A DNA stretch of 9,749 nucleotides, taken from NCBI GenBank assembly GCA_016931365.1, contig JAFGEY010000406.1:1-9749 (forward strand), read 5' to 3'. A program made the position numbers and the translations under genes. How positions within the stretch are numbered: position 1 is the first letter of the stretch; each line of letters opens with the position of its first letter. Source of the DNA: Anaerolineae bacterium (lineage in GTDB: Bacteria; Chloroflexota; Anaerolineae; JAFGEY01). Shown one piece after another: positions 6,247 to 7,608 of this stretch. The notes below the pieces were generated by a model, which had not been told where the DNA came from, did no database searches, and saw only the letters and a list, made by a program, of their open reading frames with translations.

Positions 6247-7608
6247 ATGTCAAAACGCCTTTTATTCTTATTCTTGAGCGGTCTGCTGCTGGCAGGCATC
6301 GTCGCCTGCCGGTCGACAACTCAGGTCGTTCAGACGACGGTCGCGCCTCCGGCGGCTGCGACGCCGACAAAGACGCCCGTTCAGGCCACGCCGCTGCCGC
6401 TGCCGCCGACGCCGCTGCCGCCGACGTCAGCGAGCGAACCCACGTTGACGCCGGCCGTCGAAGTGACGGCTATGGCAAAAGAAAATCCCGAATCGCCCGA
6501 GACCGAAATGGTCATTCCACCGACGATCGAACCGACGCCGCCTTTTGAGTGGCAAATCCCATCCATCGGCGAAGGAGAATGGGTCAAGGGCAGCGATGCC
6601 GCCGGGATGACCCTGATCGAGTACGGCGACTATCAGTGACCGGCCTGTGCAGGGACTAGCGCCCTGATCAAGCGTCTGGCAGACGCTTTCCCCAACGAAC
6701 TCAAGGTCGTTTATCGCCATTTTCCGCTGACCAGCATTCACAACAAAGCCATCATCTCGGCCGAAGCCGCCGAGGCCGCCGGCGTCCAGGGCAAATTCTG
6801 GGAGATGCACGATATCTTGTACGCTCGCCAGAGCGAGTGGTCAGGTCTGGCAGAAGATCAGGCCAAGGCCAAGTTTGCCGAATATGCCAAAGAGCTGGGC
6901 CTCGATACCAAGACATTCTCTGACGCACTCAACAAGGGCACCTATCGCCCCAAGGTGCAGCAGGCATACGACGATGCAGTAGCCATCGGTTTGCCCGGCA
7001 CGCCGACGCTGTTCATCAACGGGTTGTACTATGACGGCTCGCGCGATGATATGACGATGAGCATTTACATCCGCTATTTCAACTTTAGAGGGCCGCAGTA
7101 CGCCACACCGCCCGAGATGTTCATCGATCCGGCGCAGCCCTACTTTGCCACCGTCGAGACCAGCAAGGGCACGTTCTGCATCGAACTGTTTGCTGACAAA
7201 GCGCCCAAGACCGTCAACAACTTTGCCTTTCTGGCTCAAACCGGGTTCTACGACGGCGTGCCCTTTCACCGCGTGCTGCCCGACTTTATGGCCCAGGCTG
7301 GCGATCCCTCCGGCACGGGCATCCTTGGCCCGGGCTACAGCTTTGAGGACGAGTTCAGCCCCGATCTGCGCCACGACGGGCCGGGCATCGTATCGATGGC
7401 GAACGCGGGCGCTAACACCAATGGCAGCCAGTTCTTTATCACCTACGTCGCCACGCCGCAGCTCGACGACCAACACAGTGTGTTTGGCAAAGTGGTGCAG
7501 GGGTTCGAGGTCGTGCAGGCGATCGCTCCGCGCGATCCACAGCAGAACCCCTATGCGCCGTGGGACAGGATCAAAACGATCCATATCGATTCGGCGTGCC
7601 AGGAATAG
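6247..7608 (+). CDS. Putative selenoprotein: lipid-anchored DsbA-like (UPAC) oxidoreductase fused to cyclophilin PPIase
   Basis: Read through the TGA at 6637-6639, this is a 453-residue protein. Residues 1-21 are a lipoprotein signal peptide (lipobox IVAC, Cys21), and 22-100 a Pro/Thr-rich linker. Residues about 102-295 form a DsbA/Thioredoxin_4-like domain: TLIEYGDYQ, then the TGA codon as residue 131, PAC with Cys134, YRHFPL, QGKFWEMHDILY, and the cis-Pro loop GTPTLFING (Pro253). Residues 299-453 form a cyclophilin domain with FHR (Arg342), FMAQ (Phe347, Met348, Gln350), SQFF (Gln395, Phe397) and His410; the Trp of human cyclophilin A is replaced by Gln. Relatives have Cys at position 131, so TGA most likely encodes selenocysteine. 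The ATG at 6247 has GGAG five bases upstream. The downstream ATG at 6805 is no credible start: it falls mid-domain and its GGAG is one base away. Sequencing error or a nonsense mutation remain possible. Confidence 0.75.
6637..6639 (+). other. In-frame TGA, predicted selenocysteine codon
   Basis: TGA is residue 131 of the 6247-7608 frame and sits in EYGDYQ-TGA-PAC. Thioredoxin_4/DsbA-like relatives have Cys here as the N-terminal, nucleophilic Cys of CxxC. Replacing this Cys gives UxxC, the standard position of Sec in redox selenoproteins. It is the only stop in an otherwise open 454-codon frame whose protein homology continues on both sides. Confidence 0.72.
6670..6688 (+). promoter_or_regulatory. 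Candidate bacterial SECIS hairpin
   Basis: AAGCGTCT (6670-6677) and AGACGCTT (6681-6688) form a perfect 8-bp stem closed by a GGC loop, inside the coding sequence after the TGA. Bacterial SECIS elements are hairpins just 3' of the UGA with a G in the first two loop positions, which this has. The loop begins 38 bases after the TGA, at or slightly past the usual limit as I remember it. An alternative, nearer hairpin pairs CAGGG (6650-6654) with CCCTG (6662-6666), but its seven-base loop starts with AC unless the top pair opens. Which one SelB would recognise cannot be decided by eye. Confidence 0.4.

Follow-up and report, generated by a model that had tools for sequence, protein, structure and literature searches.

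The question raised by this locus is whether the in-frame TGA at positions 6637-6639 of the window, as we call the whole 9,749-nt stretch of DNA that was analysed, ends a gene or is read as an amino acid within a longer one. Selenocysteine (Sec) is by far the best reading of this codon, and similar genes in environmental bacteria form a family with this one. With high confidence we take the gene to encode an enzyme, predicted to be exported and lipid-anchored, in which a Sec-Cys DsbA-type domain is combined with a cyclophilin, UGA 6637 being decoded as Sec via the hairpin at 6670-6688. The exchange of TGA and Cys codons at one position, the covariation of the hairpin and the domain make-up of the protein were computed directly and are described below, together with the alternative readings of the locus.

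A two-domain reading frame with one TGA

The original prediction described a frame, 6247-7608, that is open apart from a single TGA, and translation bore this out: TGA 6637-6639, which corresponds to residue 131, is the only in-frame stop before the terminal TAG, no further stop or frameshift was seen in this frame, and the alignment with the best DNA relative (L101) spans residues 4-452. The features of the gene are the following.

6238..6241, + strand: GGAG, Shine-Dalgarno-like sequence recognised by eye, 5 nt upstream of the ATG at 6247
6247..7608, + strand: predicted read-through coding sequence of 453 residues, translated with TGA as U (Sec at 131) and ending in TAG
6247..6309, + strand: putative lipoprotein-type signal MSKRLLFLFLSGLLLAGIVAC with Cys21, from the sequence and from a helix at residues 4-18 in the structural model
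6574..7068, + strand: DsbA-like/Thioredoxin_4 domain, residues 110-274 (PF13462, 72.7 bits; PF01323, 49.7 bits)
6637..6639, + strand: TGA as predicted selenocysteine 131 of a UxxC motif, from translation, codon comparison and its place ahead of helix 132-147 in the model
6646..6648, + strand: resolving Cys134, from translation
7003..7005, + strand: cis-Pro253 of GTPT, a conserved position, from translation and its place just before strand 254-257 in the model
7147..7578, + strand: cyclophilin-type peptidyl-prolyl isomerase domain, residues 301-444 (PF00160, 156.6 bits; cyclophilins in Foldseek)
7618..7651, + strand: terminator-like hairpin recognised by eye, 12 bp with loop GCGC, followed by six T

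The terminator-like hairpin was absent from the output of a simple scan, and scans of the window with Rfam (gathering thresholds) and for tRNAs gave no match. Residues 1-21 would represent a lipobox-type lipoprotein signal. Cys21 is followed by a Thr/Pro-rich linker, and pLDDT is below 50 at residues 20-85 of the AlphaFold model, which was built from 36 sequences (mean pLDDT 81.8, pTM 0.70).

That the TGA occupies the site of the nucleophilic Cys in a DsbA/Thioredoxin_4 domain, and that homology continues beyond it in the same frame, had been proposed from the letters of the sequence, and both proposals hold. The motif around residue 131 is EYGDYQ-U-PAC, with Cys134 in place; one Thioredoxin_4 match (110-274) and a DSBA match (122-264), obtained from Pfam with C put at 131, both run across the TGA, and YRHFPL and QGKFWEMHD follow from residues 156 and 181, respectively. 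The predicted integrity of Cys134 and of the cis-Pro was confirmed in the translation. In the model, residue 131 immediately precedes a helix and Pro253 a strand, as in a thioredoxin-fold active site; the Pfam gathering score, an active site that the model locates where a helix begins, and the conserved cis-Pro position place this part of the protein in the DsbA/Thioredoxin_4 family. By sequence it matches the solved thiol-disulphide oxidoreductases BdbD (3eu3, E 1.8e-10) and DsbA (4pwp, E 6.9e-12), from which the window protein differs by its predicted Sec nucleophile and by the presence of a second enzyme domain. No DsbA-type structure appears among the 50 PDB matches listed by Foldseek, where the cyclophilin part alone shows.

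The second domain, the cyclophilin at residues 301-444, was overlooked in the original prediction and carries FHRV at 340 and DFMAQ at 346, which resemble the catalytic region of cyclophilin A. Its assignment to PF00160 is given by the Pfam gathering score and by the fold, in sequence and model, and the best Foldseek matches among those listed are cyclophilins (prob 1.00). It is the same domain as in other cyclophilins, here located behind a DsbA domain with a predicted Sec.

What relatives carry at codon 131

The protein search rendered 4766 matches, the best four of which besides P0006, the database protein of the window locus itself, are 73-76% identical to the query over its full length and have Cys at the site (P0002-P0005). 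Among the best 120 of the 4766 matches, 26 show Cys in the motif at the site, and 42, P0006 included, are short proteins that start at query positions 137-170, i.e. 6 to 39 residues past the Sec position. Judging from where they begin, the latter look like genes truncated at a TGA, as expected.

At the DNA level, TGA was found at the codon in five of the 40 loci covering it in a genome collection (L001, L002, L003, L005 and L006). In the class of G003, comprising 396 genomes, at least 55 genomes hold a fusion copy with one TGA, and G302 has two copies; the named relatives in the class with the DsbA-cyclophilin fusion are Chloroflexota/Anaerolineae. The matches listed from these 396 genomes include one fusion copy with a TAG (G121) and none with a TAA, and in the TAG copy (L163) the homologous codon is TCA, so that the TAG lies elsewhere.

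From 132 tblastn rows, 127 distinct contexts of the codon were obtained, identical contexts having been dropped once. This set was partly chosen by hand (32 TGA rows, 27 stop-free rows and one TAG row), 30 others being taken directly from the class search. Codon 131 is TGA in 56 contexts, TGT in 34, TGC in 32, ACG in two, and GCC, GAT and TCA in one each. A search for relatives with Cys at position 131, which had been suggested as a check, was thus answered by 66 of the 127 contexts, as well as by P0002-P0005. If a fusion is defined by length, with 240 or more codons beyond the site, 97 of the 127 contexts are fusions, namely all 56 with TGA, 26 with TGC, 10 with TGT and five others, the 56 TGA and 36 Cys fusions representing a chosen set and not a natural frequency; the 30 non-fusion contexts all have Cys. 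Because TGA is present in 56 of the 127 homologous contexts and TAA or TAG in none, occurrence of the TGA by chance is excluded, within a set that was partly chosen. Two features of bacterial selenoproteins are therefore found here: an in-frame UGA with homology on both sides within one domain, and Cys at the same position in homologs.

These results bear on the view that a gene caller would take of the locus, in which the TGA is a true stop that separates a short lipoprotein stub from an independently started cyclophilin fragment. With ATG, GTG and TTG as starts the ORFs are indeed 6181-6639 and 6805-7608, so that the predicted start of an orphan fragment at 6805 stands for these codons, but the database protein P0006, of 314 aa, starts at residue 140, the CTG codon at 6664. 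The stub, however, would stop within the DsbA fold, right before the catalytic helix of the model, whereas the 26 database matches with Cys mentioned above are single proteins, and neither TAA nor TAG ever replaces the TGA in the 127 contexts; we regard a true stop as highly improbable. Global reassignment of TGA in this organism, for instance to Trp or Gly, can be given a negligible probability: no point in its support was found, three of six further genes of the window that were checked end in TGA, and 66 of the 71 contexts without TGA have Cys, rather than Trp or Gly, as the homologous residue.

Five fusions (L163, L178, L181, L183 and L190) have neither Sec nor Cys at the site, the codons being TCA, GCC, ACG, ACG and GAT, respectively, and these codons look as though the protein had been retained after its redox site was abandoned. 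Searches of the family and order around G012 rendered G012 only, and P0003 found no match above 55% identity in a further sample of 298 genomes from the class. Among plasmids, 1412 records match, none of which covers more than 80% of the query.

A SECIS-like hairpin downstream of the TGA

Two hairpins follow the TGA in the window.

6650..6666, + strand: weak first hairpin, CAGGG-loop-CCCTG, a helix poorly conserved in the family
6670..6688, + strand: SECIS-like hairpin of 8 bp, stem AAGCGTCT, loop GGC, stem AGACGCTT, the first G of the loop being separated from the TGA by 38 nt

In bacterial SECIS elements the distance from the UGA to the loop is usually about 16-37 nt. Like the bacterial SECIS of the bSECISearch model, the hairpin at 6670-6688 is a coding-region stem-loop just after the UGA with a G in the loop, and it differs from it in its spacing of 38 nt. 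Its eight pairs are all perfect, and synonymous recodings made with the codon usage of the window reach 8 bp at this place in 335 of 200,000 cases. On the other hand, and against the Sec reading, 8 bp anywhere within 63 nt are reached in 614 of 20,000 synonymous recodings, which is not rare, and the 61-nt stretch that surrounds and follows the TGA, when folded by itself, does no better than shuffles (z -0.20).

Across the family, a hairpin of at least 5 bp whose loop of three bases occupies nt 42-44 downstream of the TGA (type II) is formed by 38 of the 56 TGA copies, including the window, versus two of the 36 Cys copies, and 15 more TGA copies form a hairpin with the loop CGUGNU (CGUGGC in one case) at nt 27-32 (type I). 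One type or the other is thus present in 53 of 56 TGA copies versus three of 36 Cys copies. The thresholds behind these counts, 5 bp for type II and 4 bp for type I, were set once the sequences had been seen; for this reason, and because of the relatedness of the copies, Fisher values calculated from the counts do not represent probabilities. Three TGA copies (L102, L145 and L155) fit neither type; L102 has a different strong hairpin, with loop GGC, nearer to the TGA, and L145 resembles a weakened type I. The first loop position is G in all 38 type II copies. The loop of the window is GGC, a point against it, GGT being found in 29 of the 38 and GGC in one other copy; the 19-nt hairpin as a whole is identical to that of L127, the DsbA domain of which is 54% identical.

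The main test of covariation was carried out with 55 unselected TGA copies other than the window. For the type II stem, the value was 0.304 versus 0.148 for shuffles, none of 500 being as high, and slid partners gave 0.049-0.145 in the same copies. For the type I stem, which is formed by a minority of the 55, it was 0.196 versus 0.122 (again 0 of 500), with 0.089-0.138 for slid partners. The 36 Cys copies remain at the level of shuffles both for type II (0.161 versus 0.161) and for type I (0.136 versus 0.138). Sets sorted by pairing rendered 0.414 versus 0.163 (type II, 37 copies) and 0.417 versus 0.124 (type I, 16 copies), values that are inflated because the 37-copy set and nearly all of the 16-copy set were picked for pairing. 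There is little support for the extra hairpin ahead of the type II stem, in which 66.7% of cells are paired and three of the six pairs depart only by unpaired cells. A covariance model built from 37 other copies, which holds sequence as well as structure, recovered the window with a score of 55.6 bits (E 3.6e-12); its best score on 54 Cys or other-type sources was 38.5 bits, reached by the Cys copy L174, whose hairpin has 6 bp. The covariation in sequence thus adds a third feature of bacterial selenoproteins, a SECIS-like stem-loop just downstream of the UGA, and, together with the exchange of Cys and TGA at one codon, it supports the selenoprotein reading put forward originally.

The hairpin also helps to weigh the possibility that, in one strain, a Cys gene has either just acquired a nonsense mutation or been sequenced wrongly, TGC or TGT being read as TGA. 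Such a gene should lack the 8-bp hairpin that is common to TGA copies and mostly absent from Cys copies, and the remaining frame is intact and conserved. In its favour, and against the Sec reading, all four of the nearest protein relatives carry Cys, and a quickly built tree places the window within their group; moreover, the argument from the hairpin is not absolute, since two of the 36 Cys copies keep type II. Taken together, we consider a mutated or misread Cys gene very unlikely.

The Cys copies with a type II hairpin are L174:481-537 and L180:1145-1201, with 6 and 5 bp, respectively, and these hairpins are possibly remnants from a time before Cys replaced Sec, as their sequences would suggest. 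In another Cys copy, L179, 16 of 19 nt are like the hairpin of the window.

Selenocysteine machinery in related genomes

Every one of the 55 TGA genomes listed contains at least one of selA, selB, selD and tRNA-Sec. With limits of E <=1e-60 for selB and E <=1e-10 for tRNA-Sec, selB was found in 45, tRNA-Sec in 40 and either of them in 48 of the 55 TGA genomes listed. The rates are alike in the class as a whole (selB in 314 and tRNA-Sec in 294 of 396 genomes), and an argument based on the association of these genes with TGA copies was dropped because their presence is not higher in the TGA genomes. In the seven TGA genomes without a selB or tRNA-Sec match (G329, G183, G323, G377, G198, G134 and G005), selA exceeds the cut-off in five (G183, G377, G198, G134 and G005) and selD in four (G329, G323, G198 and G134), and selB is over the cut-off in none at a looser limit. 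Matches to selD over the cut-off were found in nine of the 12 genomes searched, and all 10 such matches contain one TGA, which would fit decoding of UGA as Sec in those genomes. The two TGA genomes with the gene nearest to that of the window, G012 and G243, both have selB, tRNA-Sec and selD; of selA, G243 has the complete gene and G012 only a piece of 147 positions, which starts at base 1 of its contig. In the organism of the window, UGA 6637 would be translated as Sec through the SelB/tRNA-Sec route, with the coding-region hairpin at 6670-6688 presumably directing the insertion.

Exchange of predicted selenocysteine and cysteine in the family

In a quickly built tree with 122 rows, the distribution of Sec and Cys needs at least 16 changes; for the Sec group, starred branches force 10 of these. 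The window groups with the Cys relatives P0002-P0005 (SH-aLRT 100) in this tree, which comes from a short search without bootstraps and includes 25 database rows that are full-length Cys proteins only, a composition that favours Cys neighbours. Other than the window's own, no fragment exceeds 67% identity among the best 120 of the 4766 protein matches. Near the window, according to these sequences, Sec would either have been kept and lost twice nearby or have been regained.

The two hairpin types require four changes on the same tree, and the SECIS element appears, from the sequences, to have moved more than once. As a tentative and rather doubtful extension, the family could represent class-wide, lipid-anchored Sec-DsbA/cyclophilin foldases with many swaps of Sec and Cys, in which the SECIS moved between loops at nt 27-32 and at nt 42-44, the second just past the usual distance, and in which the lineage of the window may have returned to Sec from within a clade of Cys proteins.

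Relation to described selenoproteins and possible function

The closest described family is NCBIfam NF041057 (Rcas_1661 family thioredoxin-like (seleno)lipoprotein), likewise a lipoprotein with a thioredoxin-like UxxC. The window protein matches it at residues 15-266 (E 7.7e-29), with 101 bits versus a curated cut-off of 190, so that it is not a member by that test; the 247 model positions are all matched before the cyclophilin. All 36 members of our family alignment match NF041057 at E <=1e-5. Table 1 of a 2026 review (PMC13188914) lists the Rcas_1661-type entry under the name 'DsbG-like protein, UxxC', and the review also gives DsbA-like selenoproteins (PF01323, UxxC) as 'form 1'; the latter are tabulated as well in PMC1794560 and resemble the window protein in having Sec as the first active-site residue in a domain of DsbA type. 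Since Sec-containing DsbA/DsbG-like proteins are already catalogued (PMC13188914), the protein of the window does not represent a new class of redox site. The terms 'cyclophilin' and 'peptidyl-prolyl' are absent from the main text of PMC13188914, and 'cyclophilin' from that of PMC1794560. A literature search on such fusions and on Anaerolineae selenoproteins, mostly of journals open without subscription, found no description of a Sec-DsbA-cyclophilin protein, including in passages of PMC13188914, PMC12013277, PMC1794560 and PMC4607533. The cyclophilin fusion and the two alternative positions of the SECIS look new.

The product would be a DsbA-like thiol oxidoreductase with a U-P-A-C site joined to a cyclophilin-type prolyl isomerase, which its N-terminus suggests to be exported and lipid-anchored. 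Most plausibly, as judged from the domains, the fusion aids the folding of exported proteins, both domains acting on the same substrates; the Sec site would exchange disulphides on substrates whose proline bonds are isomerised by the attached domain. Sec-based disulphide chemistry and a prolyl isomerase would thus be combined in one predicted exported protein. Sec-DsbA-cyclophilin genes appear cut in predicted protein sets. Moreover, the family offers a natural series of exchanges between Sec and Cys with apparently intact, decaying and relocated SECIS elements, in which the rules of bacterial SECIS placement and the fate of the SECIS after loss of Sec become directly testable.

Other genes in the window

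An inverted repeat, CAAGAAACCAGGTT ... AACCTGGTTTCTTG, is located at 6166-6202, between a histidine kinase gene and the Sec gene. Further upstream, at 627-2747 on the + strand, lies a lipoprotein-like ORF of 706 aa, for which Pfam and NCBIfam gave no match at the thresholds applied and in the translation of which five imperfect repeats of about 60 residues can be seen by eye (Y-V-G-V-D-V-V-I-N ... S-T-x-P-L-x-R-P ... C-D-I-x-V-x-H-x-F-A-P). A GH130-type phosphorylase gene is found at 2842-3726 (+ strand), its nearest NCBIfam family being beta-1,2-mannobiose phosphorylase (351.1 bits versus a cut-off of 450), and it is adjoined by a URO-D family gene at 3730-4791.
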